Source of the DNA: Lysobacter enzymogenes | GTDB lineage: Bacteria; Pseudomonadota; Gammaproteobacteria; Xanthomonadales; Xanthomonadaceae | DNA length: 64,000 nt | Direction of reading: 5' to 3' | NCBI RefSeq assembly: GCF_900106525.1 | Contig: NZ_FNOG01000005.1 | Coordinates: 62,001 to 126,000 of the forward strand | Part shown: positions 5,727-64,000 of the stretch, one piece after another | Layout of the letters: the number at the start of each line of letters is the position of its first letter | How positions within the stretch are numbered: the first letter of the stretch is position 1 | Notes under the pieces: model-generated | Seen by the model: only the letters and a program-made list of their open reading frames with translations | What the model was told of the DNA's origin: nothing | Database searches by the model: none | Made by a program: the position numbers and the translations under genes

Positions 5727-7598
5727 TTAAACCGCGTCTTCGGCCGCCATCTCCACCGCCGTTTCCTCGGCATCGTTCTGGCGCAGGCTGGCGGCGCGCA
5801 GGTTCGCGTAGTCGACCGAGGTCTGCGCCAGCACCGCTTCCGAGCCTTGCGCAACCAGCCGCCCGTCGACCATCACCAGCACTTCGTCGAAGTGGCGCAG
5901 CAGGTCGAGGCGGTGCACCGAGGCGATCAGGCAGGCGTCGGCGAATTCGGCGAACAAGTTGCGGTACACCGCCGCTTCGGTGCGGGTGTCCAGGTTCGCG
6001 GTGGGCTCGTCGAGCAGGATCAGCGAACTGCCGCGCGCGGCGAGGATGCCGCGGGCCAGAGCTACGCGCGCGCGCTGGCCGCCGGACCAGTTGGAGGCGT
6101 GCTCGCCGATCGACACCTGCAGCGGATCGCCTTCGGTCGGCAGGAAGTCCATGACCGCGGCCAGTTCCAGCGCGCGGTGATAACCCTCGGGCTCGGGCTG
6201 GCCGTGCAGGGATTCGCACATCGCCAGATTCTGTTCCAGCGAGGCCTCGAACAGTTCGGCCTCCTGCGGGATCAGCGTGGTCGATCCGCGTAGGAAGCGC
6301 GCGGCCTTCAGCGGCGCCTGGATCTGCGCGCCGGCGGTCGCGCCGTTGGATGCCTGCACCTCGATGCGCTCGGCGACGTAGAGCCCGGCGAGCACCCGCA
6401 TCAGCGTGCTCTTGCCCGAGCCGCTGCTGCCGATCAGCGCATAGCGTTTGCCGCGCTGCAGGTTCAGGCGGACATGGTCGAGGGTCGGGCCGCTGTCGCG
6501 CCCGGCGACGTGGCGGAACACCAGTCCGTCGATCTCGCACTGCTGCCAGCTCTGGGTTTCGACCGGCTCGTGCAGGCTCTCGTCGACCGGATGGTGGCGG
6601 ATGACGTCGGCGCTTTGGTAGTTGGCGTACTGGGTGGCGAAGGTCTGGAAGTTCGCCGCCACCGCCGCGACCACCGCGCCGGACTGCAGCGCGTATTCCC
6701 AGACCATGTAGACGCTGCCGAACATGAGCTTCTGGCCGTCGCCGGGCGCGCGCAGCACCAGCCACGCGTACAGCGCGACCAGACAGCAGCTCAGCAGCCG
6801 GCTGGCGACGTCGACCGCGCACCACTTGACTTCGTTGATGACGATCATGCGCCGCAGCGGCTCGAACACGTCTTCGACGCGCTGCTGCAAGGTGCGGATG
6901 AACGGGCGCGCCTGACGCAGCGCGAGCACGCTGGTGGCGTTGCCGAGCGCGTCGGCCAAGACCGAGGTGTAGCGCCGTTCGGCGTCGTTGGTGCGGATCG
7001 CCAGACGCACGATCGCGCGGTCGAAGCCGACCACCGCGCCGCAGATCGCCAGCAAACCGAACGAGGCCAAACCGCCGACCAGCGGATGGATGGCGATCAG
7101 CGCGCCGATCGGCCCGACCAGGCGCACGGCGCTGCGCAGATAGATGAACTGGCTTTCGGCGAAGGTGCCCAGCGACGAGCTGCTCTGGTGCACGCGATGG
7201 GCGCTGGCGACGGAATGGTTGCGGTCGTGCCAGGACAGCGGAAACGCGAGCAGCCGTTGGGTCAATGCGGTGGCGACGCGTTGCCGCACGGCCAGCGCGA
7301 CGTTGCGCTCGAGGATCCGGCCGGGGCCGTGGATCAGCCAGCTGACGATGGTGGCGCCGAGCACCGCCGCCAGCCAGAACGCCGCCTCGCCCGCGCCGTC
7401 GTTGCCGCGCGCCTGCAGCACGTTCAAGGACTTGCCGACCAGATAAGGCACCGCCAGCAGCACCACCTGCGCGCCGACCAGCAACAGCATCGAACCCAGC
7501 AGCGCGGCGCGATGGCCCTTGGCCTGAAACCACAGTTCCCGATACAGCTGCAGGACCGGGGCGCGGTGGATGCCCGGCTTTGCGTCGTCACTATCCAT
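5727..7598 (-). CDS. ABC transporter, fused permease/ATPase exporter (623 aa)
   Basis: The N-terminal half carries about six hydrophobic spans, for example AALLGSMLLLVGAQVVLLAV, WLAAVLGATIVSWLI and PLVGGLASFGLLAICG. The C-terminal nucleotide-binding domain has Walker A GSSGSGKST, Q-loop LIPQEAELF, signature NWSGGQRARVALARG, Walker B LILLDEPTANLD and an H-loop His in SVHRLDLL. All motifs are intact. The layout is that of a half-size homodimeric exporter (MsbA/YddA type). The start ATG at 7596-7598 is chosen because the sequence before it is not protein-like. It diverges from the methyltransferase gene across a 173-nt promoter-containing gap, which suggests it may export the metabolite or a glycolipid-like intermediate. 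The substrate is an inference only. Confidence 0.85.
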   Translation of the reverse strand: MDSDDAKPGIHRAPVLQLYRELWFQAKGHRAALLGSMLLLVGAQVVLLAVPYLVGKSLNVLQARGNDGAGEAAFWLAAVLGATIVSWLIHGPGRILERNVALAVRQRVATALTQRLLAFPLSWHDRNHSVASAHRVHQSSSSLGTFAESQFIYLRSAVRLVGPIGALIAIHPLVGGLASFGLLAICGAVVGFDRAIVRLAIRTNDAERRYTSVLADALGNATSVLALRQARPFIRTLQQRVEDVFEPLRRMIVINEVKWCAVDVASRLLSCCLVALYAWLVLRAPGDGQKLMFGSVYMVWEYALQSGAVVAAVAANFQTFATQYANYQSADVIRHHPVDESLHEPVETQSWQQCEIDGLVFRHVAGRDSGPTLDHVRLNLQRGKRYALIGSSGSGKSTLMRVLAGLYVAERIEVQASNGATAGAQIQAPLKAARFLRGSTTLIPQEAELFEASLEQNLAMCESLHGQPEPEGYHRALELAAVMDFLPTEGDPLQVSIGEHASNWSGGQRARVALARGILAARGSSLILLDEPTANLDTRTEAAVYRNLFAEFADACLIASVHRLDLLRHFDEVLVMVDGRLVAQGSEAVLAQTSVDYANLRAASLRQNDAEETAVEMAAEDAV

Positions 7599-7771: not shown

Positions 7772-8563
7772 ATGTCACAACGAGCCATGATCGACGGCTA
7801 CGACGCCGCCATGCAGGGCGCCGTGATCGAGGCCTATTACGGTTCCAGCGACTTCTACAATTTCGGCTTCTGGTCCGACGCGACCCAGAACCAATCGCAG
7901 GCGTCCGAAGACCTGGTCGCGCGCTTGCTGGAGTTCATCCCTCCCGCCGACCGCGGCGGCCGCATCCTCGATGTGGCCTGCGGCCTGGGCGCTTCCAGCC
8001 GTCATCTGCTGCGCCATTTCGCCGCCTCGCAGATCGTCGGCATCAACGTCTCCGAACTCCAGCTCGAACGCGCGCGGCACAATGCGCCGGGCTGCGAATT
8101 CCGGGTGATGGACGCGACCCGCCTGGATTTCCCGGACGCGTCCTTCGACAACATCCTGTGCGTGGAAGCGGCGTTCCACTTCGATACCCGCGCCGCGTTC
8201 CTGCGCGAGGCGCTGCGCGTGCTCAAGCCCGGCGGGCGGCTGGTGCACTCCGACATCCTGATGTCGACGCTGCCGCCGACCACCGAGGTGCGCACCCACA
8301 TCCCCAACGCCAACGCCATGACCGATCCGGCCGAACTGGAGCGCGCGATCCTCGCCGCCGGTTTCGCCCGCACCGAGGTGGTGGACGCGACCGCGCAGTG
8401 CTGGACGCCGTTCCTGCGCTCGGTGCGCCGGTTCAAGGCCGCGCACAAGCGGCCCGGCGTCGCCGCGGCGCGCCGTTCGGCGCCGTTGTTCTTCAATCCC
8501 GAATACCTGGCGCGCTTCATCCGCCACTACGTGCTGGCCTGTTCGCAGAAAGCCGCGGATTGA
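7772..8563 (+). CDS. Class I SAM-dependent methyltransferase (263 aa)
   Basis: A Rossmann-fold methyltransferase. Motif I is ILDVACGLGASSRHLLRHF near residue 68. FRVMDATRLDFPDASFDNIL and AFLREALRVLKPGGRLVHSD follow as motifs II-III and post-III. N-terminal YYGSSDFYNFGFW resembles small-molecule C-/O-methyltransferases of the UbiE/sterol type. The start MSQRAMID at 7772 has gggg-rich sequence 5 nt upstream; an in-frame ATG at 7742 is an alternative. It is the first gene of the rightward tailoring series, behind a candidate promoter and divergent from the exporter. It probably methylates the polyketide or a sugar; the position and substrate are unknown. Confidence 0.85.
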   Translation: MSQRAMIDGYDAAMQGAVIEAYYGSSDFYNFGFWSDATQNQSQASEDLVARLLEFIPPADRGGRILDVACGLGASSRHLLRHFAASQIVGINVSELQLERARHNAPGCEFRVMDATRLDFPDASFDNILCVEAAFHFDTRAAFLREALRVLKPGGRLVHSDILMSTLPPTTEVRTHIPNANAMTDPAELERAILAAGFARTEVVDATAQCWTPFLRSVRRFKAAHKRPGVAAARRSAPLFFNPEYLARFIRHYVLACSQKAAD

Positions 8564-8730
8564 ACCGCGCGCCGCAGTTTTCGATGCACCGCAGCAAACC
8601 CCGGCGCGCGCATCGCCCGCGCCGGTCGCTCTGACAGAACTCCCCCGCTACGCACCATGGACCCCAGCCGTCGCGCGTCGCGCGCGCCGGATTGGTTCGA
8701 CCGTCGTACCCAGCATCAGGGAAGGCTCGA

Positions 8731-10860
8731 ATGGATGTCGCTGCGCAACACGGCGTCGAGGCGAAGCCCGGCGCGAACGATGAACTCGATGCGATCCTGG
8801 ATCGCGACCCGGCCGGCGCGTACCCGCGCATGGACGCTCGCTCGCGCCAGGACTACCGGGCCTGCGCCGAGGACTGGGCCGCGCGCGCGCGGCGCGCGCC
8901 TGCGCAGGCCGCGCAGGCGGCGCTAGAGCTGGCCATCGCCGCAAGCCAGCGCCACGGCCGCGACGACCGCCGCGCGCATGTCGGCTATTTCCTGCTCGAC
9001 CGCGGCGTCGGCGAACTCGCCGCCGCGCTCGGCGCGCCCCTGGACGCACGCGAGCGGATCCGGCTGGCGCCGACCCCGCGCAAGCTGGCGCTGTACTACG
9101 CCGCGTTCTTCTCGGTCTGCCTGCTGTACGGCCTGCTCTCGGTGCGCCTGTTCGCGTTCCGGCTGCCGCCGTTCGGCCACGCGCTGATGGTGGCGCTGGC
9201 CGCGCTGTACCTGTGCCCGATCCTGCAGAGCTGGATCAACATGGCGATGCCGCGGGTGCTGCGCTCGCGGCGCCTGCCGCGGCTGGATTTCGCCGCCGGC
9301 CTGCCCGCCCGCGCGCAGACCCTGGTCGCGGTGCCGTGCCTGCTGACCTCGCGCGAAAGCGCGCACAAACTCGCGCGCGCGCTGGAGACGCTGTACCTGG
9401 ACAATCGCGACGCCGGCGCCGGTTACGCGCTGCTGTCGGACTTCGTCGACGCCCCCGGCGAGCATGCGCCGGGCGAAGACGCCTTGCTGCAGGAAGCCTG
9501 CATGCAGATTTCGGCTTTGAACGAGCGTTACGGCGGCGGCTTCGCCCTGCTCCACCGTCCCCGCCGCTGGAATCCGAACGAAGGCGTATGGATGGGCTGG
9601 GAGCGCAAGCGCGGCAAGATCGAAGAGCTCAACGCCTACCTGCTCGGCGGCCCTTCGCCGTTCCGGCTCGAACACGGCGACCTGTCAAAATTGACGGGGA
9701 CCAAGTACGTGTTCGTGCTCGACGAGGACAATTCCGACCTCACCGCTGGCGCGGTGCAGCAATTGGCCGCGGTGCTGGAGCATCCGCTGCAGCGGCCGGC
9801 GTTCGCCGCCGACGGCATCACCGTGGAGGCCGGTTACGTGCTGGTGCAGCCGCGCGCGACCGTGGTGCTGTCCAAGGACTCGCGGCCGAGCCGCCTGGAA
9901 ATCCTCGTCCAGTCGATGATCCAGATCGAGACCGGCAAGCCGCACGACGACGGCCTGCCGCCGGTGGACGCCAACCTGGAACTGTTCGGACAGGTGCCTT
10001 ACGTCGGCAAAGGCTTCTACGACGTCGCCCATTTCCACCGGATCATGCACGGCCGGGTTCCCGAAAACAGCACGCTCAACCACGACGTGCTCGAAGGCGG
10101 CACCGTGCGCGCGGCGGTGGTCGGCGACATCGTGCTGCGCGACACCTTCACCCCGAGTTTCTATTCCGCGGTCAACCGCATCCATCGCTGGATGCGCGGC
10201 GACTGGCAGCTGCTGCCGTGGCTGCTGCCGCACGTGCGCAACGCCGCTGGCGAGCGGATCGTCAACGCGCTGTCGCCGTTCGCGCGCTGGCAGATCTTCT
10301 ACAACGCGGTGCGCATGCTGTTTCCCAGCGCGTCGCTGCTGTGTTTCGCGCTCGGCTGGGCGAGCTCGCCGACGCCGGGCGGATGGACGCTGTACCTGCT
10401 CGCGGTGGCCTGGGTGCCGGCGCTGGTGGAGCTGGCGCCGAAACTGCTGCGCAACCTGCGCGCGTCCAGGCTGCGCGCCACCGCCAGCGGCGCCTGGTCC
10501 TGGCTGTGCCTGCGCTCGGCGAGTTTCCTGTTCGGCGTCGATCAGGCCCACAACAGCCTGGACGCGGCGCTGCGCTGCAGCTATCGGATGCTGGTGTCGC
10601 ACCGGCGCATGCTGGAATGGACCGCCTCCAGCGTCGTGTCCGCGCGCGATCCGGGCCTGGCCCAGTACCTGCGCATGATGTGGAGCTCGCCGGCCGTCGC
10701 CATCGCCGTGACGGGCGTGGTCGCCTGGGTCAATCCGCCGGCGCTGAGCAGCGCGCTGCCGTTTGCGACGATGTGGTTCTTTGCCCCGTTCATCGCTTGG
10801 TGGTGGAGCCAGAAGCCCGACCGACAGGTCTATCCGGCGATTCAGTCCGCGCCGCCGTAA
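8731..10860 (+). CDS. GT84-like membrane glycosyltransferase, copy 1 (709 aa)
   Basis: This resembles the glycosyltransferase part of cyclic beta-1,2-glucan synthases (NdvB/ChvB, GT84) but has none of their C-terminal GH94 phosphorylase region; those synthases exceed 2700 residues. A helical N-terminus contains RRAHVGYFLLDRG. Two membrane spans follow near residues 115-175. The catalytic part has VPCLLTS, YALLSDFVDA, FVLDEDN (Asp-x-Asp), YVGKGFYDV, NHDVLEGG and HRWMRGDWQLLPW. Membrane spans follow, ending FIAWWWSQKP. The start ATG at 8731 has aggg/aagg upstream. It is a close paralogue of the next gene. It presumably transfers glucose or a related sugar at the inner membrane. Its association with a polyketide cluster is unusual. 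Confidence 0.8.
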   Translation: MDVAAQHGVEAKPGANDELDAILDRDPAGAYPRMDARSRQDYRACAEDWAARARRAPAQAAQAALELAIAASQRHGRDDRRAHVGYFLLDRGVGELAAALGAPLDARERIRLAPTPRKLALYYAAFFSVCLLYGLLSVRLFAFRLPPFGHALMVALAALYLCPILQSWINMAMPRVLRSRRLPRLDFAAGLPARAQTLVAVPCLLTSRESAHKLARALETLYLDNRDAGAGYALLSDFVDAPGEHAPGEDALLQEACMQISALNERYGGGFALLHRPRRWNPNEGVWMGWERKRGKIEELNAYLLGGPSPFRLEHGDLSKLTGTKYVFVLDEDNSDLTAGAVQQLAAVLEHPLQRPAFAADGITVEAGYVLVQPRATVVLSKDSRPSRLEILVQSMIQIETGKPHDDGLPPVDANLELFGQVPYVGKGFYDVAHFHRIMHGRVPENSTLNHDVLEGGTVRAAVVGDIVLRDTFTPSFYSAVNRIHRWMRGDWQLLPWLLPHVRNAAGERIVNALSPFARWQIFYNAVRMLFPSASLLCFALGWASSPTPGGWTLYLLAVAWVPALVELAPKLLRNLRASRLRATASGAWSWLCLRSASFLFGVDQAHNSLDAALRCSYRMLVSHRRMLEWTASSVVSARDPGLAQYLRMMWSSPAVAIAVTGVVAWVNPPALSSALPFATMWFFAPFIAWWWSQKPDRQVYPAIQSAPP

Positions 10861-10907
10861 GTGCGACTGCGAGCGCCGCCGCGCCCGATTCATGGAGATC
10901 TGCCAGG

Positions 10908-11021: not shown

Positions 11022-13145
11022 GTGGACTTGGACGTTGTGGCAGGGCGCGCTGCCGGGCTCGAGGACGGTGTCGACGCGATTCTTCGCGACGACCCGATCG
11101 GCGCCTACCCGCACATGGACGCGCTCTCCCGTGAAGACTACCGGGCCCGGGTCGAGACGTGGGCGGCGCGCGCACGGCGCGATCGCGCACAGACCGCGCG
11201 CATCGCGCTGGAACTCGCGCAGCAGGCCGGCCAGCGTCATGGCCTTGCCGACCGCCGCGCCCACATCGGCTATTACCTCACCGATGCCGGCCTGGCCGAA
11301 TTCGCCGCCCGGCTCGGCGCGCGGCTGAACTGGCGCGAGCGGCTGCGGCTGCGATCCACCTCGAGCTTGGTGCTGGCCTATTGCGCGGTCGTGTATTCGC
11401 TTTGCGCGGCGTTCGGGATCGTCTCGGTGCGGATGTTCGAGATCGCCCTGCCCTGGTACGGCCAGGCGCTGCTGGCCGCGGCGACCGCGCTGTACGCCAA
11501 CTACATCGTGCAGAGCTGGATCAACCTGCATCTGCCGCAGTTGCTGCTGCCGCGGCGGATGCCGCGCATGGATTTCAGCGCCGGCATTCCGGACTCGGCC
11601 AAGACCCTGGTCGCGGTGCCTTGCCTGCTGACCTCGGTCGAGGGCGCGGACAAGCTGGCGCGCACGCTGGAGCGGCTGTATCTGGCCAACCGCGATGCCG
11701 GCGTGGGTTATGCCTTGCTGTCGGATTTCGTCGACGCCGCGAGCCAGCACCGCGACGACGACGAGGCGCTGCTGCAGGCGGCCTGCGCGCAGATCTCGAT
11801 ACTGAATGCGCGTTACGGCGGCGGCTTCGTCTTGCTGCACCGGCCGCGGCGCTGGAACGCCAGCGAGAATCTGTGGATCGGCTGGGAGCGCAAGCGCGGC
11901 AAGGTGGAGGAGCTCAACGCCTACCTGCTCGGCGGCCCTTCGCCGTTTCAGACCGCGCACGGCGATCTGGCCAAGGTCGCCGGAACCCGTTACGTGGTCG
12001 TGCTCGACGAGGACAACGACGAACTCACCGCCGGCGCGGTGGCGGAACTGGCCGCGGCCATCGCCCATCCGCTCAACCGCGCCACGACCGGCGCCGACGG
12101 CCGCCAGGTCGAAGCCGGTTACGTGGTGCTGCAGCCGCGCGCGACGATCGCATTATCCCAGGACGCCGCGCCCAGCCGCCTGGAGCTGATGATCCACGCG
12201 ATGGTCGAGATCGAAACCAGCAAGGATTTCCGCGCCGACAAGCCCGCGGTGCATATCGACCAGGACCTGTTCGGCCAGGCCGCGTACGGCGGCAAGGGCA
12301 TTTACGAGGTGGCCATGTTCCACCGCCTGACCCAGGGCCGCATCCCCGAGAACACCATCCTCAGCCACGACGTGCTCGAGGGCGGCATGGTCCGCGCCGG
12401 CGTGGTCAGCGACGTGGTGCTGCGCGAGAACTTCGTGCCGACCTTCTACGCCGCCATGCGCCGCAGCCATCGCTGGATGCGCGGCGACTGGCAGCTGCTG
12501 CCGTGGCTGCTGCCGACGGTGCGCACCGCCGCGGGCGTGCGCGAGCGCAACACCTTGTCGCTGTTCGGGCGCTGGAAGATCTTCCACAACGCGATGCGGA
12601 TGATCCTGCCGATCGCCTCGTTGCTGTGCTTCGTGCTCGGTTGGGCCGCGTCGGCCGAGCCCGGGCTGTGGACGCTGAACCTGCTGGCGATCGCCTGGGT
12701 GCCGGCGGCGATCGGGCTGGCGATCGGCCTGGTGCGCAATCTGTTGGCCGGCAGCCTGCGTTCGGTCGTGCGCGGCTTGTGGTCGTGGCTTTCGCTGCGC
12801 TCGGCGAGCTTCATCTTCGGGGTCGATCAGGCCCAGACCGCGTTCGACGCCGCCGCGCGCGCGAGCTTCCGCATGTGGATCTCGCGGCGCAAGCTGCTGG
12901 AGTGGACCGCATCGAGCGTGATGGCCACCCGGCGCGACCCGAGCCTGGGCCAGTATCTGCGGATGATGTGGTTTTCGCCGGCGTTCGCCGTCGCCGTGGT
13001 GTGGATGATCGCCCGGGTCAATCCGCCGGCGCTGTCCAGCGCGGTACCGTTCGCCACCTTGTGGAGCTCGGCGCCGGTGGTGGCGTGGTGGTGGAGCCAG
13101 AAACCGCAGGCGCGCGGCCGCGCCGCCCCGCCCTCGCCGGCCTGA
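11022..13145 (+). CDS. GT84-like membrane glycosyltransferase, copy 2 (707 aa)
   Basis: A tandem paralogue of the preceding gene, with the same order of features: [26 protein letters not shown], two spans (residues about 110-165), VPCLLTSVEGADKLAR, VVLDEDNDELTAG, YGGKGIYEV, SHDVLEGG, HRWMRGDWQLLPWL, C-terminal spans and the end WWWSQKPQ. It also lacks the GH94 region of true cyclic glucan synthases. The start is taken as GTG at 11022, because ggggag lies 7 nt upstream and the alignment with copy 1 begins just after. A GTG at 10974 is possible but has no ribosome site. All catalytic motifs are intact in both copies, so the two may form a heteromer or act successively. Confidence 0.8.
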   Translation: MDLDVVAGRAAGLEDGVDAILRDDPIGAYPHMDALSREDYRARVETWAARARRDRAQTARIALELAQQAGQRHGLADRRAHIGYYLTDAGLAEFAARLGARLNWRERLRLRSTSSLVLAYCAVVYSLCAAFGIVSVRMFEIALPWYGQALLAAATALYANYIVQSWINLHLPQLLLPRRMPRMDFSAGIPDSAKTLVAVPCLLTSVEGADKLARTLERLYLANRDAGVGYALLSDFVDAASQHRDDDEALLQAACAQISILNARYGGGFVLLHRPRRWNASENLWIGWERKRGKVEELNAYLLGGPSPFQTAHGDLAKVAGTRYVVVLDEDNDELTAGAVAELAAAIAHPLNRATTGADGRQVEAGYVVLQPRATIALSQDAAPSRLELMIHAMVEIETSKDFRADKPAVHIDQDLFGQAAYGGKGIYEVAMFHRLTQGRIPENTILSHDVLEGGMVRAGVVSDVVLRENFVPTFYAAMRRSHRWMRGDWQLLPWLLPTVRTAAGVRERNTLSLFGRWKIFHNAMRMILPIASLLCFVLGWAASAEPGLWTLNLLAIAWVPAAIGLAIGLVRNLLAGSLRSVVRGLWSWLSLRSASFIFGVDQAQTAFDAAARASFRMWISRRKLLEWTASSVMATRRDPSLGQYLRMMWFSPAFAVAVVWMIARVNPPALSSAVPFATLWSSAPVVAWWWSQKPQARGRAAPPSPA

Positions 13146-13238: not shown

Positions 13239-15218
<1,980 letters not shown>

Positions 15219-15264: not shown

Positions 15265-16191
15265 ATGTCCTTGATCGCGTCCACGCCGCAACCGACCCTC
15301 GCCGACGACGTCGCGCTGAACCCGCACGCGCGCTACGCCTGGCACGAACTCGAAGGCCCGGGCGGGCTGCCGATGCTGGTGATCGACGACGCGCTCGAGG
15401 ATCCGCACCGCGCGCGCGCCGCCGCGTGGAATTCGCGCTTCCACCTGCCCGGCCCCAACGAGTACTACCCCGGCTGGCAGGCGACCGCGCAGATGTCGGG
15501 CGAAAAGCGCCTGATCCAGGATCTGGCCAAGCTGTTCCTCGACCGGCTGTGGTCGCGCGGCTGGCCGCCGCCGCTGCGGGTGACCGACCTCAAGCCGCAT
15601 TCGACCTTCTCGGTGTTCGGCATGGACCACGAGGTGGCGCGCCGCAACGGCTACATCGACCAGCACGTGGACACGTTCTCGTGGATCGCGGTGGTCACCT
15701 ATCTGTTCGAGCACGACGAGCGCTCCGGCGTCGACCGCGGCACCGCGTTCTGGAAGCACCGGCCGACCGACCTGAAGACGTTCTTCCTCGGCGACCTGCT
15801 GCAGGCCGCGCAGATCGAGCACCTGTTCGGGCTCAACTTCATCGACCCGTTCCGCAAGGCCAGCCTGCGCCTGCGCGCGGCCAGCATGGCCGAAGCGCAG
15901 AAGCAGATCCTGGAGAACCCGTCCTCGACCCGGCGCCTGTTCTCGCTGGAAGAAGACCATCAGTGGAGCCTGCTCAAGTTCGTGCCGGCGCGTTTCAATC
16001 GCATGGTCGCCTACCCGACGTGGCAGTTCCATTCCATCGTCGACACCTCGCCGCCGCAGGCGCTGTCGACCCGCAACGCCCGGCTGACCTACAACACCTT
16101 CATCCCCTACCCCGTGCCCGCGGACCTGGGGCCGCAACCGAAGTACCAGGGCGGCGGCTACGCCGCGATCGACGGCATGCGCGTGGAATGA
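15265..16191 (+). CDS. DUF6445 family protein, putative Fe(II)/2OG oxygenase-like (308 aa)
   Basis: The start has ggagaggg immediately upstream. LPMLVIDDALEDPHRARA opens the core. DQHVDTFSWIAVVTYLF contains a His-x-Asp pair near residue 135, GTAFWKHRPTD follows, and RFNRMVAYPTWQFHSI supplies a further Arg and His. This order (HxD ... H, ending in a double-stranded-helix-like half) is that of DUF6445 proteins, which look like distant prolyl-4-hydroxylase relatives. Catalytic activity is not proven for the family. It lies 46 nt after the carbamoyltransferase and 55 nt before the amidohydrolase, so it is part of the rightward tailoring unit. A hydroxylation or modification role is an inference. 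Confidence 0.65.
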   Translation: MSLIASTPQPTLADDVALNPHARYAWHELEGPGGLPMLVIDDALEDPHRARAAAWNSRFHLPGPNEYYPGWQATAQMSGEKRLIQDLAKLFLDRLWSRGWPPPLRVTDLKPHSTFSVFGMDHEVARRNGYIDQHVDTFSWIAVVTYLFEHDERSGVDRGTAFWKHRPTDLKTFFLGDLLQAAQIEHLFGLNFIDPFRKASLRLRAASMAEAQKQILENPSSTRRLFSLEEDHQWSLLKFVPARFNRMVAYPTWQFHSIVDTSPPQALSTRNARLTYNTFIPYPVPADLGPQPKYQGGGYAAIDGMRVE

Positions 16192-16246: not shown

Positions 16247-17602
16247 ATGAAGCCATACACCTTGATTTCCGTCGACGGCCACGCCGGCCTGCCGACCGCG
16301 CAGTACCGCGATTACCTGGAGCGCAAATACCACGCCGCGTTCGACGACGAGATCGAACAGTTGGCCGCGTTGCGCAAGGGCTTTCTAAACGCGGGCAAGA
16401 ACGCGACCAAGACGCCGCTGATGTACGAGGCGCACATGCATCGCTATTCCGATCCGGACAATCACGAGATGCAGGAACGCATCCGTGGCGCCTGGGACCT
16501 GGACGTGCGGCTCAGGGAGCTCGACGCCGAAGGGGTGATCGGCGAGGTGCTGTTCCCCGACGGCCAGGGCTTCAACTCGTTCCCGTTCGGCGGCTTCTTC
16601 GGCGAGCATCCGGTGCCGATCCGCGATCCGGAGCTGCGCGCGGCCGGCGCGCGCGCGCACAACCGCTGGCTGGCCGAGTTCTGCGGCGCCAGCGGCGGGC
16701 GCCTGCAGGGCGTGGCGATGATCATGCCGTTCGACATCTGGCAGGCGGTGGCCGACGTGCGCTGGGCCTACTCGGCTGGCCTGCGCGGCATCGTCCTGCC
16801 GCCGCCGGACGAGACCTACCCGCCCTACCACGAGGCCGTGTTCGATCCGCTGTGGGCGGTCTGCGCCGAGCTGGGCATGGCGGTGCACTCGCACGGCGGC
16901 GATCCGCCGAAGATCTACGGCCAGAGCATCGCCTCGCAGACCCTGGCGATTCTCGAGCTGGGCTTCTTCCGCCGCCGCGTGCTCGCCCAGATGATGCTCG
17001 GCGGTGTGTTCGTGCGCCATCCGAACCTGCGCTTCGTCTACACCGAAGTCGGCATCGACTGGTTGCCCAACTTCATCGACCTGCTCGAGCACGTCTATCA
17101 CAACGACTGGCTGCGCATGGGCCAGCCGCCCAAACGCTGGCTGTCGCTGTCGCCGAAGGACGCCTGGGCGCGCAACTGCGCCGCCGCGGCCACCGCCGCG
17201 ACCTTCGACGAGATCCAGCAGGCGCGCCGGCTCGGCTTCGAGACGGTGATGTGGGGCGCCGACTATCCGCACGTGGAAGGCGGCTGGCCGCACTCGTGGC
17301 AGGAGATCCGCCAAGCCTTCGCGACCGTGGACGATCAGGAGCGGCGGCAGATGGTCGGCGAGAACGCCGCGCGTTTCTACCGCTTCGACCCGCAGCTGAT
17401 CGAGTCGCTGGTGGCGCGGATCGGCCCGCCGGCCGGCACTTTCATCAGCGACGAGGTGCCCGAGCGGCCGGAGTTCAGCGTGCACGACTTCACCAACGGC
17501 TGGGTCAACAGCTACGGCGGCTTCGCCCGCAACATGCGCTGGTCGCTGGACAACACCGAGGGTTATCCGGACTCGCGGCCGAGCGCCAAGCCGAACGCCT
17601 GA
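16247..17602 (+). CDS. Amidohydrolase-2 (ACMSD-like) family protein (451 aa)
   Basis: A TIM-barrel metal-dependent hydrolase/decarboxylase of the amidohydrolase-2 group. SVDGHAGLP sits at the N-terminus with Asp-x-His in place of His-x-His. MAVHSHGGDPP supplies the mid-barrel His, and WGADYPHVEGGWPHS provides the C-terminal Asp motif. The start at 16247 (MKPYTLIS) is preferred because aggag lies 10 nt upstream, whereas the in-frame ATG at 16238 is only 1 nt from it. It is the last of six rightward genes. Members of this family cut C-N bonds or decarboxylate; related proteins occur in natural-product clusters with no assigned step. The substrate here is unknown. Confidence 0.8.
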   Translation: MKPYTLISVDGHAGLPTAQYRDYLERKYHAAFDDEIEQLAALRKGFLNAGKNATKTPLMYEAHMHRYSDPDNHEMQERIRGAWDLDVRLRELDAEGVIGEVLFPDGQGFNSFPFGGFFGEHPVPIRDPELRAAGARAHNRWLAEFCGASGGRLQGVAMIMPFDIWQAVADVRWAYSAGLRGIVLPPPDETYPPYHEAVFDPLWAVCAELGMAVHSHGGDPPKIYGQSIASQTLAILELGFFRRRVLAQMMLGGVFVRHPNLRFVYTEVGIDWLPNFIDLLEHVYHNDWLRMGQPPKRWLSLSPKDAWARNCAAAATAATFDEIQQARRLGFETVMWGADYPHVEGGWPHSWQEIRQAFATVDDQERRQMVGENAARFYRFDPQLIESLVARIGPPAGTFISDEVPERPEFSVHDFTNGWVNSYGGFARNMRWSLDNTEGYPDSRPSAKPNA

Positions 17603-17872: not shown

Positions 17873-18379
17873 TTACAGCGCGTCTTCCAGATTGATGCCC
17901 GGCGCGCCGTAAATGGTCGGCGGCTGTCCGCCGGCGACCATCATCAGGATGCTCAGCTGGCCGCGATGGTGCGCCTCGTGGCGCAGCATCAGGTTCAGCA
18001 GCTCCATGCGCGTCCACGGATTGCCGTAGAAATCGATGGCTTCGTCGATCCAGGCCTCGTCCTTGGACGCCACCGCCTGCACCAGCGCCGCGTGCGAGCG
18101 GCGGAATGCGGCAGTCATGCCTTCCACCGTGTCCGGCCAGGCGTCGGGAGGCACCGGGTTGTCGCCGTCGGGGCTGGCGCCCATCACCTCGGCGCAGAAC
18201 CAGCGTTCGCTGATGCAGATGTGCCAGACCAGGCCGGCCAGGGTCCAGCCCTTGTCGGGCACCACGGTCTGTTCGTTATGGCCTTCCGGCACCGTCGCGA
18301 ACACTTCCAGGGTGGTTTCGTTCTCGCGTTCCCAGGTCTTCAGCACGCTCTGGATATCGGCTCGCATGTCGGCTCGCAT
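17873..18379 (-). CDS. DinB family protein (168 aa)
   Basis: A four-helix DinB/YfiT-type protein. GLVWHICISERWF carries the first metal His near residue 52, and LMLRHEAHHRGQLS carries the two later ones near residues 131-138. This is the usual three-His metal site, which in relatives binds Ni, Zn or Fe; some act as thiol-dependent transferases. The start contains a 12-nt tandem duplication that encodes MRAD twice, so translation could begin at either ATG (18379 or 18367). It is the last gene of the leftward series, 34 nt after the oxygenase-like gene. Its role in the pathway is unknown; thiol-dependent detoxification is one possibility. Confidence 0.8.
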   Translation of the reverse strand: MRADMRADIQSVLKTWERENETTLEVFATVPEGHNEQTVVPDKGWTLAGLVWHICISERWFCAEVMGASPDGDNPVPPDAWPDTVEGMTAAFRRSHAALVQAVASKDEAWIDEAIDFYGNPWTRMELLNLMLRHEAHHRGQLSILMMVAGGQPPTIYGAPGINLEDAL

Positions 18380-18413: not shown

Positions 18414-19694
18414 TCAGCGCAAGGCGCCGCCGGGCGATCGCATGTAGACCATGAACTGCACCGCTTCGGTCTTGCTCAGCGCGTCCAGGTCGGATTTGCC
18501 GAGCCGGTTCCACAGCAGATGCTCGAGCAGTTCGTCGGAATAGCCCAGGCGCGTGGCGGTGTTGCGGATGGTCTGCTTCTGCACCGGGCTGATCGGCCCG
18601 GTCGGGCGCGATTTGGCGGTCAGCTCGGGGTCGAGGTAGCGCGCGGTCTGGCCGATGTCGGCGATGATCTTGTCCAGCTCCTGCTCGTCGAGCTGGGGCG
18701 GACAGAAGCGCGCGGGCTCGGTCTGCGGCAAGGCCTGTTCGCAGGCGCGGCGCAGCGCGGCGCGCATGCCGCTGACCTTCTCGCGCAGGCTCGCCGCCGG
18801 GCGCAGATATTCGGCCTCGATCTGCGGCATCGCTTCGGCCAGGGCCGGGTTGTCGCCGTCGCTGGCCAGGTGCGAGCCCAGGTTCTGCACGTAGGAGTCG
18901 CGGTGGATGTTGTCCACGCACAGGAACCGGCCGTAGCGGTTGCGCTTGAAGCGCAGGTTGAACGACATCGCATCGTCGACGTAGCCCAGGTAATGCCAGA
19001 TCAGCGCCGGCATGTAGATCGTCTCGCCGGGCTCCAGCACCGCGTGGTAGCCGCCGACTTCGGCGATGAAGTCCAGTTGCTCGGCGGTCGACATGCGCTC
19101 CAGGTACACGCCCGACGACCACGGCGCGCCCGAGGTGGTGCGCAGGTCGACGCAGGCCTCGGGCTGGAACAGCAGCACCTGCTTGCGCCCGAACATCTGG
19201 TGCAGCAGCACCTGGCGGTGGTCGCCGTCGAAATGCAGATGGGCGCGGTTGCCGGCGTTGGCCACGAAGATGTTCGAGCACAGGTCGTGGTCGCCGTACT
19301 TGCGCGGCATGTCCAGCACTTCGGGCCGGTCCAGGTCGTCGGCGAGGCAGAACTCGGGCAGGCGGAACATCTGCATGATGTTGGCCGGGATTTCGTACTC
19401 GGTGCACAGCAGCGCCGTGTCCGGATGGGCGCGCACGTGCGCCCAGTACTCGTCGAAGGTCATGGTCGTCTCGACCGCGCTCTCCGGCGCGCTGGCGGCG
19501 ACGGCGTACTCGGTCTGCACGTGCATCGGCACGTTGCCGAACGCGGCGCTGGCGTCTTCGATCGTGCGGATCGCATCGATCGGCTGGCCCGCGAACAGGT
19601 CGGTGATGATGACCGGCGTGCGCGTGCGCACGTAGTCGCGCAGGAACCGCTCAGGGTCGGGCCTGGAGATTCTTGCGATTTCCTTCGCTGCCAT
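18414..19694 (-). CDS. JmjC/cupin-8-like Fe(II)/2OG oxygenase (426 aa)
   Basis: RPDPERFLRDYVRTRTPVIITDLFAG matches the N-terminal part of cupin-like JmjC proteins. AHLHFDGDHRQVLLHQMFGRK gives the His-x-Asp metal pair near residue 153 and a Lys for 2-oxoglutarate. ETIYMPALIWHYLGYVDDAMSFNLRF gives the distal His near 237. The C-terminal 150 residues are helical (PVQKQTIRNTATRLGYSDE, a possible dimerisation region). It is likely a non-heme iron hydroxylase acting on the polyketide or on a carrier-bound amino acid. The gap to the upstream permease is 70 nt. The motifs are clear; the substrate is unknown. Confidence 0.8.
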   Translation of the reverse strand: MAAKEIARISRPDPERFLRDYVRTRTPVIITDLFAGQPIDAIRTIEDASAAFGNVPMHVQTEYAVAASAPESAVETTMTFDEYWAHVRAHPDTALLCTEYEIPANIMQMFRLPEFCLADDLDRPEVLDMPRKYGDHDLCSNIFVANAGNRAHLHFDGDHRQVLLHQMFGRKQVLLFQPEACVDLRTTSGAPWSSGVYLERMSTAEQLDFIAEVGGYHAVLEPGETIYMPALIWHYLGYVDDAMSFNLRFKRNRYGRFLCVDNIHRDSYVQNLGSHLASDGDNPALAEAMPQIEAEYLRPAASLREKVSGMRAALRRACEQALPQTEPARFCPPQLDEQELDKIIADIGQTARYLDPELTAKSRPTGPISPVQKQTIRNTATRLGYSDELLEHLLWNRLGKSDLDALSKTEAVQFMVYMRSPGGALR

Positions 19695-19764: not shown

Positions 19765-20952
19765 TCAGATCGCGCGCAAGTCGTCGACCACCTGGCTGCG
19801 CACCGCGCGCAGCGCCGGAATCAGCCCGCCGAGCACGCCGATCGCCAGCGCCGCGGCCATGCCCTGCAGCACCACCGGCGGGGTCATCGACACATCGAAC
19901 ACCAGCTGGCGCAGATCCGCGCCGACCGCGGTGCTGACCGTGCGGCCGCCGGCGACCAGCGCCGCCAGCGCCGCGCCGAGCGCGCCGCCGAGCAGCGCCA
20001 GCAGCATCGATTCGAACACGATCGAACACACCACCACCAGCGGCGGGAAACCCAGCGCGCGCAAGGTGGCGATCTCGCGGCGGCGGTCGTCGATGCTGGA
20101 ATACATCGCGTTGATCGCGACGAACATCGCGCCCAGGGCCATGATCCCGCCCATCACATAGGCCATGAAGCCGAGCAGGCCGTTGAGGCTCTGCGATTCG
20201 CGCTGCAGGAACTCCGGCTCGCTGAACACGTCCATGGCGATGCTGGGATTGGCCGCGATGGCCTGCTTGAAGCCGGTCACGGCCGCGGCATCGGGCAGCA
20301 CCGCGGTGACGTTCTGGAACATCGGCCGGCGGCTGACGTCCATGACCACGGTGGCGTCGGCCATCAATTCGGATTCGCGCATGCTGCCCTGGGCGGCGAA
20401 CACGCCGACGATCTTCCACTGGGCGCCGTAGGCGGCGACCTGGCCGCCGAGGCCGAGGCCGCGGAACTGCTCCAGCGCCTGGCGCCCCACCACCACCTCG
20501 AACTTGCCGGGTTCGAACATGCGTCCGGCGACCAGGTGGATCTCCGGGCGCACCGCGAGGATCTCCGGGCCGACGCCGCGGATGGTGCCGTTGACCTCCA
20601 GGCCGCCGGCCTTCTCCACCAGGGTGATCGGGCCGACCGCTTCGGCGGTGATCAGCAAGGTGCCATCGGCGGCCTTGCGCACCTGGGTCGAGTTGCGGAT
20701 CGCGCGCAGGTCGTCGAGCGAGATCGCGCTGGCGATCTCCACGGTCGAGCCGGCGCGCAGCACCAGGGCGCGGTCGGGCCGGCCGGCGTCGCGCATGGCC
20801 CCGTCGAGGCCGGCGTTCATCGCCAGCACGCCGCAGAACACCGCCACCGCGCCGGCGATGCTGACGATCATCACCAGTGCGTTGAGGCGCCGGCGCGGCA
20901 GCCCCTGCAGGTTCATCAGCGCGGTCGAGGCGATCAGTCTGAGCATGGACAT
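19765..20952 (-). CDS. FtsX/MacB-type ABC transporter permease (395 aa)
   Basis: An N-terminal membrane span (RRRLNALVMIVSIAGAVAVF) is followed by a large periplasmic domain of about 220 residues. Three C-terminal spans follow (FMAYVMGGIMALGAMFVAIN, VCSIVFESMLLALLGGALGA, VLQGMAAALAIGVLGGL), with the coupling segment DDRRREIATLRALGF before the second of these three. This is the MacB/LolC-E permease topology. The start (complement of 20950-20952) has ggag 8 nt upstream and lies 11 nt after the stop of the other permease gene. With that permease and the ATPase at 23148-23834 it probably forms a heteromeric MacB/Lol-like pump, perhaps for export of or self-resistance to the product. Confidence 0.85.
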   Translation of the reverse strand: MSMLRLIASTALMNLQGLPRRRLNALVMIVSIAGAVAVFCGVLAMNAGLDGAMRDAGRPDRALVLRAGSTVEIASAISLDDLRAIRNSTQVRKAADGTLLITAEAVGPITLVEKAGGLEVNGTIRGVGPEILAVRPEIHLVAGRMFEPGKFEVVVGRQALEQFRGLGLGGQVAAYGAQWKIVGVFAAQGSMRESELMADATVVMDVSRRPMFQNVTAVLPDAAAVTGFKQAIAANPSIAMDVFSEPEFLQRESQSLNGLLGFMAYVMGGIMALGAMFVAINAMYSSIDDRRREIATLRALGFPPLVVVCSIVFESMLLALLGGALGAALAALVAGGRTVSTAVGADLRQLVFDVSMTPPVVLQGMAAALAIGVLGGLIPALRAVRSQVVDDLRAI

Positions 20953-20963: not shown

Positions 20964-22112
20964 CTAGCGTCCGGACAGCGCGGCGGCGAGGCTCAGGCGC
21001 ATCGCCCGCACGATCGGCAGCAGCGCGCTGACCGCGGCGACGCCCAGCGCGATCGCCAGCCCGCCGACGAACACGCCCGGCTGCATGCGCATCGCGCCGA
21101 ACAGTTCGGCCACGCTCGGGAACGCCAGCGCGGCCAGGGCCAGGCCGCTCGCCGCGGCGAGCAGGCTCAGCAGCACGGCCTCGCCGAGGATCAGGCCGGC
21201 GATGCGCAGCGGAGTGAAGCCCAGGGTCATCAGCACCGCCAGTTCGGCGAAACGCTGGCGCACCGACTGCATCATGGTGCTGGCGCTGACCACCAACAGG
21301 GTGAACAGCACCGCGCCGATGATGAAATTGCCGACCAGGCGCAGATCGTTGATTTGCCGCCACTGCACCGCGGCATAGGCGTTCTCGCTGCGGGTGCGGG
21401 TCTGCAGCGGCGAGTTCTCGGCGAGTTCGTCGATCTGCCGGGCGATCGCGCCGCTGCGCGACTGGTCCTTGACCCGCACGATCATCAGGTGCACCTGGCC
21501 GGCGCCGAACGCGCGCGCTTCGTCGAACTGGTCCAGATTGACGAAGAACAGATCGTTGAGCGCCGGCGAGGCCTCCGCCGGCTCGTAGATGCCGACGATG
21601 TCGAAGTTCCAGATGTCGCTGCCGTCCTTGCGCGGCCAAATCGCCGACTTGATCGGCACGCGGTCGCCGATCTTCCAGCCGAAGCGCCGCGCCAGGCTCT
21701 TGCTGATCACCGCGCCGGACTTGACCACCTCCATCGCCTGCAGCTGTTCGCGCGGCAGGCGCAGCTCGGGATACATGCGGAACATGCGCTTCACGTCGGC
21801 GGCGACGATCGGCAACTGCACGGTCGGGCGTTGGTAATAGCCGACGAAATACGCCCAGTAGGCGATGTCCTCGACCCCGGGGATCTTCTCCACCTGCTGG
21901 GCGAACGGCAGGATCAGCGGGTGGTACATGCTGATCCGGTTCATCACGTACAGGCGGTCCAGATGGAAGCGCTCGCTGACGTGGTCCAGGCCCTGGTTGA
22001 TGCCGTTGAGCAGGCCGAACAGCAGGAACGCCACGGTCATCGAGGCGTAGGTCAGCGCGGTGCGCACGGGCTTGCGCCACAGGCCTTTCCAGATCAGCAG
22101 CAAGTGATTCAT
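20964..22112 (-). CDS. FtsX/MacB-type ABC transporter permease, partner (382 aa)
   Basis: MNHLLLIWKGLWRKPVRTAL opens a typical FtsX-family N-terminus with a span to about residue 37. A periplasmic domain of about 200 residues follows, then spans VGNFIIGAVLFTLLVVSAST, GLILGEAVLLSLLAAASGLA and VGGLAIALGVAAVSALLP. RQRFAELAVLMTLGF is the cytoplasmic coupling helix. It is diverged from, but homologous in layout to, the gene immediately downstream. It needs the separate ATPase two genes upstream, with the aldo/keto reductase gene lying between. The interruption of a transporter operon by a reductase gene is a mark of a pathway operon. Confidence 0.85.
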   Translation of the reverse strand: MNHLLLIWKGLWRKPVRTALTYASMTVAFLLFGLLNGINQGLDHVSERFHLDRLYVMNRISMYHPLILPFAQQVEKIPGVEDIAYWAYFVGYYQRPTVQLPIVAADVKRMFRMYPELRLPREQLQAMEVVKSGAVISKSLARRFGWKIGDRVPIKSAIWPRKDGSDIWNFDIVGIYEPAEASPALNDLFFVNLDQFDEARAFGAGQVHLMIVRVKDQSRSGAIARQIDELAENSPLQTRTRSENAYAAVQWRQINDLRLVGNFIIGAVLFTLLVVSASTMMQSVRQRFAELAVLMTLGFTPLRIAGLILGEAVLLSLLAAASGLALAALAFPSVAELFGAMRMQPGVFVGGLAIALGVAAVSALLPIVRAMRLSLAAALSGR

Positions 22113-22184: not shown

Positions 22185-23138
22185 TCAGCCGCTACTTCGC
22201 AACGCCCGCGCCAGCGGCTCCAGCAGCGCCGGGTACGGCAGGCGCGGGGCGCCGGCCTGGTCCAGCGCCGCCATCTGCGCCGGGTCCAGCTGCAGATCGG
22301 CGACGCCGAGGTTTTCCTCGGCCTGGGCCAGGGTCGAGGCGCCCATCGCCGCCGCGGCCACGCCGGGGCGGTTGAGCACCCAGCGCAGCGCCACCTGCGA
22401 TCGCGGCCGCTGCAACTGCGCGGCGATCTGCGTCAGCGCCGCATCGATGCGCGCATGGGTCGCGGCGGTGTCGGCCGAAACCGCGTCGCCATCGCCGGCC
22501 TTGGCGCCGGTCAGCGCGCCGCGCGCCAGCGGGCTCCAGGCGATCAGGCCCAGGCCCTTGTGCTCGCACATCGGCAGCAGCTCGGCCTCGATCTCGCGTT
22601 CGCGCAGGTTGTACAGCGCCTGCGCGCAGCAGTAGCGGGCGAAGCCGCGGTCGAGCGCGGTCCACAGCGCTTCGTTGAGCCGCCACGCGCAATGGTTCGA
22701 GGCGCCGATGTACAGCACCTTGCCCTGGCGCACGAGTTGGTCGAACGCGCCCAGGGTCTCCTCCAGCGGAGTGAGGAAATCGTCGGAATGGGCCAGGTAC
22801 AGGTCGATGTAGTCGGTGCCGAGCCGGCGCAGCGAGGCCTCGCAGGCCTGCACGATGTGCTTGCGCGACAGCCCGGCGTCGTTGGGCTCGGGGCCGGTCG
22901 GGCGGAACACCTTGGTCGACAGCACCAGCGACTGGCGCCGCCCGCGCATCAGTTCGGCGAGCAGGGTTTCGCTGTGCGCGCAAACATCCGCGGTGTCGAC
23001 GAAGTTGACGCCGGCGTCGAGGCAGCGGCTCCAGATCCGGCGCGCTTCGTCGGCCGGCGTGTTGCCGCCGAATTCGGTCGCGCCCAGGCACAGCTGAGAG
23101 ACTTTGAGGCCGGTGTTGCCGAGAAAGGAATAGCGCAC
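22185..23138 (-). CDS. Aldo/keto reductase with substituted catalytic Tyr (317 aa)
   Basis: A (beta/alpha)8 aldo/keto reductase: LGNTGLKVSQLCLGA, NFVDTADVCAHSETLL, VLSTKVF, YIDLYLAHSDD, IGASNHCAW and WSPLARGALTG. The Asp (DTAD), Lys (STKVF) and His (LAHSDD) of the tetrad are present. The catalytic Tyr, normally in DTADVYG, is Cys (codon tgc) here. The gene starts with GTG (complement of 23136-23138), gagg lies 7 nt upstream, and the ABC ATPase gene stops 9 nt before it. Activity may be altered or lost; it may still bind NADPH. A tailoring reduction is inferred from the operon. Confidence 0.85.
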   Translation of the reverse strand: MRYSFLGNTGLKVSQLCLGATEFGGNTPADEARRIWSRCLDAGVNFVDTADVCAHSETLLAELMRGRRQSLVLSTKVFRPTGPEPNDAGLSRKHIVQACEASLRRLGTDYIDLYLAHSDDFLTPLEETLGAFDQLVRQGKVLYIGASNHCAWRLNEALWTALDRGFARYCCAQALYNLREREIEAELLPMCEHKGLGLIAWSPLARGALTGAKAGDGDAVSADTAATHARIDAALTQIAAQLQRPRSQVALRWVLNRPGVAAAAMGASTLAQAEENLGVADLQLDPAQMAALDQAGAPRLPYPALLEPLARALRSSG

Positions 23139-23147: not shown

Positions 23148-23834
23148 TCAGTGAACCTGCGAGGCGTCGACCACGCGCCCCTTGTCCAGATGCAGCCGGC
23201 GCGTCGCGCGCGCGGCTGCGGCCGGGTCGTGGGTGACCATCACGATGGTCTTGCCGTGATCGCGGTTGAACGCGCCGAGCAGGTCCAGCACCTCGTCGGC
23301 GCTGGCGCGGTCGAGATCGCCGGTGGGCTCGTCGCAGACCAATAGCGGCGCGTCGGTGACGATGGCGCGGGCGATCGCCACGCGCTGCTGCTGGCCGCCG
23401 GAGAGCTGGGCCGGCTTGTGGTCGTTGCGGTGCGACAGGCCGACCACGTCCAGCGCGATCTGCACCTGGCGCTGGCGCCGCGCGCGGTCGAGCCCGCTCA
23501 GCAGCAGCGGCACCTCGACGTTCTGCGCCGCGGTCAGGGTCGGCATCAGGTGATAGAGCTGGAACACGAAGCCGATGTGGCGGCCGCGCCAGCGCGCCAG
23601 GTCGGCCGCGCCCATCGTCGCCAGGCGCGCATCGGCCACGGTCAGCTCGCCCGAGCTCGGCCGGTCGAGGCCGGCGATCAGGTTCAGCAGGGTCGACTTG
23701 CCGGAGCCCGACGGGCCCATCAGGGCGACGAACTCGCCTTCGGCCACGTCCAGATCGACCCCGTGCAGGACCTCGACGCTGCTCGCGCCGAGGCCGTAGG
23801 ACTTGCGCAGGTCGCGCGCCGACACCAGGCTCAT
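23148..23834 (-). CDS. MacB/LolD-type ABC transporter ATPase (228 aa)
   Basis: The protein begins [16 protein letters not shown], then has Walker [20 protein letters not shown]-loop [14 protein letters not shown], signature [15 protein letters not shown], Walker [13 protein letters not shown] and H-loop VMVTHDP. The length and the [12 protein letters not shown]-type spacing fit the MacB/LolD group that pairs with FtsX-like permeases. The in-frame extension to 23897 overlaps the deacetylase gene and is rejected, because gaggg precedes the ATG at 23834. It is the ATPase for the two permeases at 19765-22112. Confidence 0.9.
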
Positions 23835-23844: not shown

Positions 23845-24813
23845 TCATGCGAAGCTGCGGTCGTAATGGTGCGGCTGGGCTTGCGCTGCGAACGCATCGC
23901 GCAGGCGCGCGCCGAGGTCGTCGCCGGCGTGCACCGCCAGCCGCGGCAGCACCAGCCGGTGGCTCAACGGCGAGGCCGGCTGGTTGCCGGTGGTGACCGC
24001 CGCGGCGAAGCCGGCGCGCTCGGCGACCTGCACCGCGTCCTCGTCGAAGGCGCCGTACGGATAGCAGAAGCTCAGCACCTCGCGGCCGAGCAGGGTTTCC
24101 AGCTTGCGCCGGCATTCGAGCATCTCGTGTTCCTTGACCGCGCGCGGATGGGCCGGCAGCAGCAAGTGGTTTTCGCTGTGCGCGCCCAGTTCCATGCCGG
24201 GCATGGCGTCGAGCCGGCGCAATTCCTCGGCCGTCATCGCCCGCACCTGCCCGGCCTCGCCGGCCGCGGCCAGCCCGCTCCAGCGCAGCAGCTCGGCGAT
24301 GCGCTCGCGCCGCTGCTGCGCGCTCAGCGGATAGAACCCGCGCCGCACCGCGTCGAAGGCCGCGCGCCTGCGTTCGGGCGTGTCCAGCGGCATCGGCGCG
24401 GCGCCCTCGCCCAGGGCGACGTCGAGCGTCGCCGGCAAGGCCTCATGGTCGGCCACGCGTTGCAGGCTTTCCCACCAGAACTCGCCCGGCCCGTCCAGGG
24501 TCGAGGTGACGATGAAGAAAGTCGCCGGATAATCGAATTCGCGCAGGATCGGCGCGGCGTCGGTCAGCGCGTCGAGATAACCGTCGTCGAGCGTGATCGC
24601 CACGCTGCGTTCGGGCGCGTCGCCGCGCGCCAGCGCCTGCGCCAGCTCCAGCAGCGGCATCACCCGGCAGCCTTGCGCGCGCAGCGCGGCCATCTGTTCG
24701 CGGAACTCGGCCGGCGACACGCACAGGTCGGTGCCGGCGTCGGCGATGCGGTGGTACATCAGGATGACGGCATTGCCGGCGGCGGAATCGCTGCGCATCG
24801 GTTCTAAGTCCAT
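23845..24813 (-). CDS. NodB-type polysaccharide deacetylase (322 aa)
   Basis: A carbohydrate esterase family 4 fold: VILMYHRIAD, then motif 1 AITLDDGYLDAL with the Asp-Asp pair, motif 2 ELGAHSENH with the two zinc His, and motif 3 SFCYPYGAFDEDA. An insertion of about 90 residues separates motifs 1 and 2. No signal peptide is seen, so it is likely cytoplasmic, unlike cell-wall deacetylases. The start lies 4 nt after the acyltransferase stop, and an alternative ATG is at 24798. In this setting it could N- or O-deacetylate a sugar or an acylated intermediate laid down by the cluster's glycosyltransferases. That role is inferred. Confidence 0.85.
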   Translation of the reverse strand: MDLEPMRSDSAAGNAVILMYHRIADAGTDLCVSPAEFREQMAALRAQGCRVMPLLELAQALARGDAPERSVAITLDDGYLDALTDAAPILREFDYPATFFIVTSTLDGPGEFWWESLQRVADHEALPATLDVALGEGAAPMPLDTPERRRAAFDAVRRGFYPLSAQQRRERIAELLRWSGLAAAGEAGQVRAMTAEELRRLDAMPGMELGAHSENHLLLPAHPRAVKEHEMLECRRKLETLLGREVLSFCYPYGAFDEDAVQVAERAGFAAAVTTGNQPASPLSHRLVLPRLAVHAGDDLGARLRDAFAAQAQPHHYDRSFA

Positions 24814-24817
24814 GGAG

Positions 24818-38821: not shown

Positions 38822-64000
<25,179 letters not shown>

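Follow-up and report, generated by a model that had tools for sequence, protein, structure and literature searches.

A gene cluster of about 72 kb in Lysobacter enzymogenes encodes what appears to be an orphan trans-AT NRPS-PKS system, whose product would be glycosylated by a pair of free-standing GT84-like proteins; we consider this explanation probable as a whole, tailoring by the GT84-like pair included. The sequence under study (hereafter, the window) is a stretch of 64,000 nucleotides (G000:C8:62001-126000) from a genome of 6.26 Mb, and flanks from the same contig were included in the analysis. Genes were called with a codon-usage script, which predicted the start positions, and were annotated with Pfam and NCBIfam. 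Based on the neighbouring contig sequence and on three relatives, namely G573 (another Lysobacter), Xanthomonas maliensis LMG 27592 and Lysobacter sp. yr284, the cluster extends over window positions 5727-78036, its right part lying beyond the window end. Thus, the cluster that the original prediction had placed at 5727-64000 is real but was truncated. Its features, in window positions, are the following.

5727..7598, minus strand: ABCB-type exporter (ABC_membrane and ABC_tran; 86% to G573, 67% to X. maliensis)
7787..8563, plus strand: SAM methyltransferase (Pfam/NCBIfam; kept in relatives)
8731..10860, plus strand: free-standing GT84-like domain, copy 1 (63% identity to copy 2; no Pfam/NCBIfam match)
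11022..13145, plus strand: free-standing GT84-like domain, copy 2 (match to Cgs, 8rf9)
13239..15218, plus strand: O-carbamoyltransferase, GdmN/NovN-like (Pfam and match to solved structures)
15265..16191, plus strand: DUF6445 protein (Pfam; without match in the X. maliensis contig)
16247..17602, plus strand: amidohydrolase-2 family protein (nearest solved relatives, DitZ and PtmU3)
17873..18367, minus strand: DinB-like protein (Pfam)
18414..19694, minus strand: Cupin_8 protein, putative JmjC-like oxygenase (Pfam; JmjC_2 match slightly below the cut-off)
19765..20952, minus strand: MacB-type FtsX permease (Pfam)
20964..22112, minus strand: MacB-type FtsX permease (Pfam)
22185..23138, minus strand: aldo-keto reductase (Pfam/NCBIfam)
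23148..23834, minus strand: ABC ATPase that probably works with the FtsX permeases (Pfam)
23845..24798, minus strand: polysaccharide deacetylase family protein (Pfam)
24818..25696, minus strand: discrete malonyl-type acyltransferase (trans-AT), FabD-type (Pfam/NCBIfam and solved relatives)
25742..26848, minus strand: Rhamno_transf (PF11316) protein, putative glycosyltransferase (Pfam)
26852..27721, minus strand: alpha/beta hydrolase, candidate release enzyme (Pfam/NCBIfam)
27718..27996, minus strand: MbtH-like protein (Pfam)
28145..38821, minus strand: megasynthase C, 3558 aa, KS-KR-ACP / KS-DH-KR-MT-ACP-ACP-ACP
38818..55413, minus strand: megasynthase B, 5531 aa, C-A(Phe)-T / KS-DH-KR-MT-ACP-ACP / KS-DH-KR-ACP / KS-ACP-ACP
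55410..74312, minus strand: megasynthase A, 6300 aa, A(Thr)-MT-T / C-A(Tyr-like)-T / C-A(Gly)-T / KS-KR-ACP / KS-KR-ACP / KS-ACP (in-window part, 55410..64000)
74309-75091, minus strand: Stf0 sulfotransferase (4-base overlap with megasynthase A)
75805-76578, beyond the window, after the Stf0 gene: methyltransferase
77023-78036, divergent: GalE (NCBIfam galE, 413.7 bits against a cut-off of 262.3)

The exporter gene marks the left end of the conserved cluster, and a sulfatase gene (3620-5611, plus strand) lies beyond this edge. The right end, past the window, is formed by the sulfotransferase, methyltransferase and GalE genes; GalE is adjoined by a gene for a kanamycin-nucleotidyltransferase-like protein (L005:14191-15021, plus strand), for which neither the G573 stretch nor the contig of X. 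maliensis gave a match. The order on the minus strand is sulfotransferase, megasynthases A, B and C, MbtH-like protein, hydrolase, glycosyltransferase-like protein and AT, followed by further genes.

A chance arrangement is unlikely, since the cluster is conserved in other genomes and dN/dS between L. enzymogenes and G573 was 0.17-0.45 in all 24 genes (24/24). In G573, the 24 genes of the 5727-78036 region recur in the same order with 71-91% protein identity, and there are in addition genes for a luciferase-like monooxygenase and a hydrolase between the positions corresponding to 17602 and 17873, as well as two small genes ahead of GalE. X. maliensis (NZ_NSET01000042.1) also keeps the order, with 61-63% identity for the megasynthases and 52-84% for the other genes found; no match to the DUF6445 protein was present in the contig, and one GT84 gene adjoins the carbamoyltransferase gene while the other lies beyond GalE, so that there is no tandem pair. 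In yr284 the region from the exporter to the methyltransferase at 75805-76578 lies in one stretch, whose plus-strand block is overwritten but alignable, and gene content and order agree with the cluster across the readable part.

The overwritten block of yr284 is a peculiarity of its record (NZ_FNPT01000003.1, ~357,050-368,300, ~11 kb). Each position there reads as the alphabetical maximum of the expected base and a second, unrelated base, with sharp ends and normal flanks. Taking G573 as a proxy for the expected bases, A was kept at a rate of.149 and turned into C, G or T at.335,.322 and.195, respectively; C turned into G (.34) or T (.147), and into A at 0; G turned into T (.139), C (.019) or A (.001); and T was kept at.953. 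There were few indels, and 500-base windows outside the block, edge windows excepted, were 91-96% identical to G573. Two stored copies of the record were identical over ~1 kb of the block (357 to 358 kb), and no origin for the second sequence emerged from the stretches compared. The possibility that the tailoring genes of yr284 had undergone hypermutation or been exchanged in a divergent cassette swap was rejected in view of the alphabetical-maximum pattern, the few indels and the normal flanks. The block is probably an error in the public record.

The three megasynthases are collinear, all on the minus strand, and contain together four A domains, three C domains and eight KS domains, with C-A-T units in line with KS modules, as corresponds to an NRPS/PKS hybrid. 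The Cys-His-His motif set is complete in all eight KS domains, DH domains occur in three of the eight PKS modules, and tandem ACPs close two modules of megasynthase B (two in each case) and one of megasynthase C (three). A domain search of 14 pieces covering all three megasynthases gave no ER or TE domain at E <= 1e-5. The A-domain codes, read by alignment to GrsA, are in order DFWNIGMVH, DASTVAAVC, DILQLGLIW and DAWTIAAVC, and they are identical in three Lysobacter genomes. From published codes, we take them to specify Thr, a Tyr-like residue, Gly and Phe, respectively. The closest solved structure to the MT inserted in the first A domain is the NRPS 5wmm (E 1e-61), presumably the A domain of TioS, which is interrupted and N-methylating. 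The code residues of the first three A domains look the same by eye in X. maliensis, while the fourth was not found by motif; a motif scan gave one DSxxxxxW ACP at the end of its megasynthase B, versus two in the window.

The original prediction of a glycosylated, carbamoylated polyene/polyol with one Phe does not agree with this architecture. Its Phe domain (DAWTIAAVC) stands, but there are four A domains and not one, as megasynthase A begins A-MT-T / C-A-T / C-A-T and would add three further amino acids (Thr with methylation, Tyr-like and Gly); moreover, only three of the eight PKS modules contain DH and no ER was reported. Domain order and the four adenylation codes rule out a single-Phe polyene product. 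Instead, Thr would be loaded on megasynthase A and N-methylated by the MT set in its A domain; a Tyr-like residue and then Gly would be added, followed by three malonyl extensions, two of them ketoreduced. Megasynthase B would add Phe, after which five malonyl extensions would follow, two of them C-methylated. The PKS carriers would be loaded by the discrete AT, and the chain would be freed after the triple ACP, perhaps via the alpha/beta hydrolase (26852-27721). By collinearity, the predicted chain is MeThr-Tyr-Gly-PK(OH)-PK(OH)-PK(=O)-Phe-PK(Me, ene)-PK(ene)-PK(=O)-PK(OH)-PK(Me, ene).

The trans-AT assignment is well supported, and the elements named in the original prediction were encountered: AT-less megasynthases (28145-38821, 38818-55413 and 55410 onward), the 14 pieces that span all three being free of Acyl_transf_1 matches at E <= 1e-5; a discrete malonyl-type AT of the FabD type at 24818-25696; and an MbtH-like protein at 27718-27996. 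The discrete AT scored 268.8 bits with the fabD model (cut-off, 260.9), and its best solved relative was DisD, followed by 6mhp, PksE and PksC. The RhiE-like model of KS linkers was over its cut-off in all eight KS domains, but the CurL-like model also matched all eight, with a higher score in three. Among solved structures, the first KS of megasynthase C matched best 7zma and PksL, then CurL, and the first KS of megasynthase A matched 7zma, 6mhl and 5elp. The linker and KS matches by themselves do not prove the trans-AT clade, because the CurL-like model matches too and cis-AT KS domains (CurL) also match well. With known trans-AT PKS/NRPS hybrids (DisD-, PksE- or PksC-type AT, RhiE-type KS linkers) the cluster has in common AT-less modules, a discrete AT, tandem ACPs and KS-DH-KR-MT modules; it differs in that here the line opens with an A-MT-T NRPS loading block.

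Tandem ACPs with the DSxxxxxW motif, a sign of beta-branching, lie at 38821-41613 and 28148-32071 (minus strand). No HMG synthase (PF08540) match was found in the G573 or yr284 genome, both of which have the same DSxxxxxW ACPs, and beta-branching was thus rejected as a requirement of these carriers. The sole PF08540 match in the window genome, at C8:242483, adjoins another PKS. This belongs to a second, separate cluster (C8:235445-314683), annotated by motif and by eye except for the HMG synthase, with AT-like genes, hydratase-like genes and DSxxxxxW ACPs, which is probably a trans-AT system with beta-branching. The same contig holds a large NRPS operon of four synthetases (C8:172120-209268), with a TE motif in the last gene in reading order.

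Neither of the two proteins from the plus-strand block that we call GT84-like exceeded a cut-off in Pfam or NCBIfam; they are so named because copy 2 aligns (E 4e-96) with residues 291-967, out of 2799, of Cgs, a cyclic glucan synthase of solved structure (8rf9), and copy 1 is 63% identical to copy 2. The open frames of the free-standing proteins measure 716-782 aa overall; those of X. maliensis have 731 and 716 aa, and the Lysobacter proteins themselves are 706-710 aa long. According to PMC10901819, UDP is held in Cgs by D527 and D624, the base is D739, R773 is part of the RW motif, and Y694 is the primer site that becomes auto-glycosylated. We aligned six free-standing copies (two each from L. 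enzymogenes, G573 and X. maliensis; yr284 was left out as unreadable) with the Cgs segment and 23 full-length synthases, a subset of all matches in which 12 come from the genus and the other 11 from outside it. D527, D624, D626, D739, R773 and W774 are kept in all six free-standing and all 23 full-length proteins. In contrast, position 694 is Tyr in 23/23 full-length synthases and Ser or Gly in 6/6 free-standing copies, in which the loop has five extra residues. A Tyr lies three residues from this position in G573_24; the remaining five copies have none there. Thus, the GT84 region of Cgs aligns and the equivalents of D527, D624, D739 and R773 are present, but the window proteins are free-standing, lacking the primer Tyr694 and any counterpart of the Cgs sequence on either side of the GT region.

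In a tree that included 11 of the 23 synthases, the six free-standing copies grouped in a single clade (100/100) whose stem is long, and the program issued a warning about a long branch (L086) meeting this group. The X. maliensis copies were sisters (100/99) and the four Lysobacter copies grouped at 90/84, below the program's starred level. A separate duplication or conversion in the Lysobacter and X. maliensis lineages is likely from these groupings. In a Pseudomonadota sample, 52 of 398 genomes matched at E <= 1e-30, and in the 51 besides that of the window the match fell within an open frame measuring 2109-3023 aa; in one of these frames a stop was read through. In the family sample, three of 395 genomes matched at E <= 1e-140 (L. 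enzymogenes, G573 and G1105, whose contig number and coordinates are the same as those of X. maliensis, G574), and all three carry the cluster; both searches scored the two best candidates per genome, and a distant free-standing GT84 could be missed. Close relatives of the free-standing proteins were thus found, among the 395 family genomes at E <= 1e-140, only in genomes with the cluster, to which yr284, with unreadable copies, is added.

In the cyclic glucan synthase, the GT84 domain primes glucan on its own Tyr694; here the Tyr and the flanking domains are gone and the catalytic residues stay, from which we infer the assembly-line product, at the inner membrane, as the acceptor. The two enzymes would glycosylate the product using UDP-glucose, or UDP-galactose supplied by GalE, a role strongly suggested by the residue loss together with the gene company, although the acceptor could instead be a lipid or a polysaccharide. 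The full scenario, to which we assign equal chances of being right and wrong, is that the GT84 domain was cut once from a cyclic glucan synthase, lost its self-priming Tyr, underwent duplication (apparently as independent events in Lysobacter and in Xanthomonas) and turned into a membrane-bound glycosyltransferase that builds beta-1,2-linked hexose on an NRPS-PKS product bearing carbamoyl and sulfate groups. It is possible, if unlikely, that the hybrid cluster is indeed an orphan but the GT84-like pair makes a short beta-1,2-glucan or an envelope sugar for resistance or the cell surface, leaving the product untouched. The solved relatives found are glucan synthases, in keeping with such an activity, and the same genome has a full-length synthase with the primer Tyr (C8:157120-165822); however, the free-standing proteins lack that Tyr and the Cgs parts flanking the GT region, and among the 395 family genomes their close relatives (E <= 1e-140) were found only in cluster-bearing ones, with yr284 in addition.

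Glycosylation of the product would be accompanied by other modifications. The plus-strand block (7787-17602) contains every gene that had been predicted in it, namely those for the methyltransferase, the two GT84-like proteins, the carbamoyltransferase, DUF6445 and the amidohydrolase. Similarly, the predicted rhamnosyltransferase-like enzyme, deacetylase and JmjC-type oxygenase correspond to the PF11316 protein, the polysaccharide deacetylase and the Cupin_8 protein with a JmjC_2 match slightly under the cut-off. The proposed glycosylation, carbamoylation and oxygenation genes are thus present, but the sulfotransferase and GalE, outside the window, were missing from that account. The carbamoyltransferase aligns with GdmN over residues 1-655 of 659 (E 2e-161) and also matches the novobiocin enzyme (E 5e-158), 7xb6 (E 8e-91) and TobZ (E 3e-78). 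The Stf0 protein is related to trehalose 2-sulfotransferase, with a score far below the cut-off of that model (122.9 versus 400).

Among 20 genomes of the genus, three have the PF11316 gene (25742-26848), that of the window being one of them; in an even family sample it was found in one of 198, which was the window's own, and in a class sample of 369 genomes there were three further matches, all weak (E 1e-14 to 3e-4). Scanning contigs with a three-sequence alignment yielded two loci, in yr284 and X. maliensis, with a procedure that used two short patterns, left out records near the window and detects close relatives only. The protein had no match among solved structures, and its fold model was poor (mean pLDDT, 39).

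Assigned from family membership, the substrates of these enzymes would make the product O-carbamoylated by the GdmN-like enzyme, sulfated by Stf0 and oxidised by the Cupin_8 protein, and its export may proceed via the MacB-type and ABCB-type transporters. That two clusters adjoin here, with the plus-strand genes (7787-17602) making a metabolite other than that of the PKS/NRPS operon, seems quite unlikely to us: although the block is on the opposite strand and is variable, the luciferase-like monooxygenase and hydrolase of G573 and X. maliensis not being there in the window genome, it adjoins the assembly line in G573, X. maliensis and yr284 (overwritten but alignable), and its carbamoyltransferase is of the GdmN/NovN product-tailoring type.

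To our knowledge, the spliceostatin assembly line does not have a Thr-Tyr-Gly start. We consider it very unlikely that the product is a known Lysobacter or Xanthomonas compound for which just the link to these genes is missing. A 2024 survey by Bierman and Walker (PMC11451712) reports three orphan hybrid clusters that occur in more than one Lysobacter genome, two of them with a trans-AT PKS; these two are of the same genus and class and could include the present cluster, but the survey terms them uncharacterised. The trans-AT product reported from X. cannabis is spliceostatin (PMC7930024).

Within the open-licence PubMed Central literature, we found no described product or paper for the gene set of the cluster, no tailoring set combining a GT84 pair, Stf0 and a GdmN-like enzyme, and no precedent for GT84 joined with a natural-product pathway. 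As judged from its genes, the cluster would join a well-known class, and the apparent novelty is the recruitment of GT84, for which no precedent was found.

The analysis delimits a bounded cluster for an undescribed peptide-polyketide, which is probably glycosylated, carbamoylated and sulfated. If our reading is true, a cut-out GT84 enzyme acting on an NRPS-PKS product would represent a new kind of natural-product glycosylation. The cluster also makes it possible to examine how a polysaccharide synthase that primes itself may turn into a small-molecule glycosyltransferase, with one known residue lost and the catalytic set intact.
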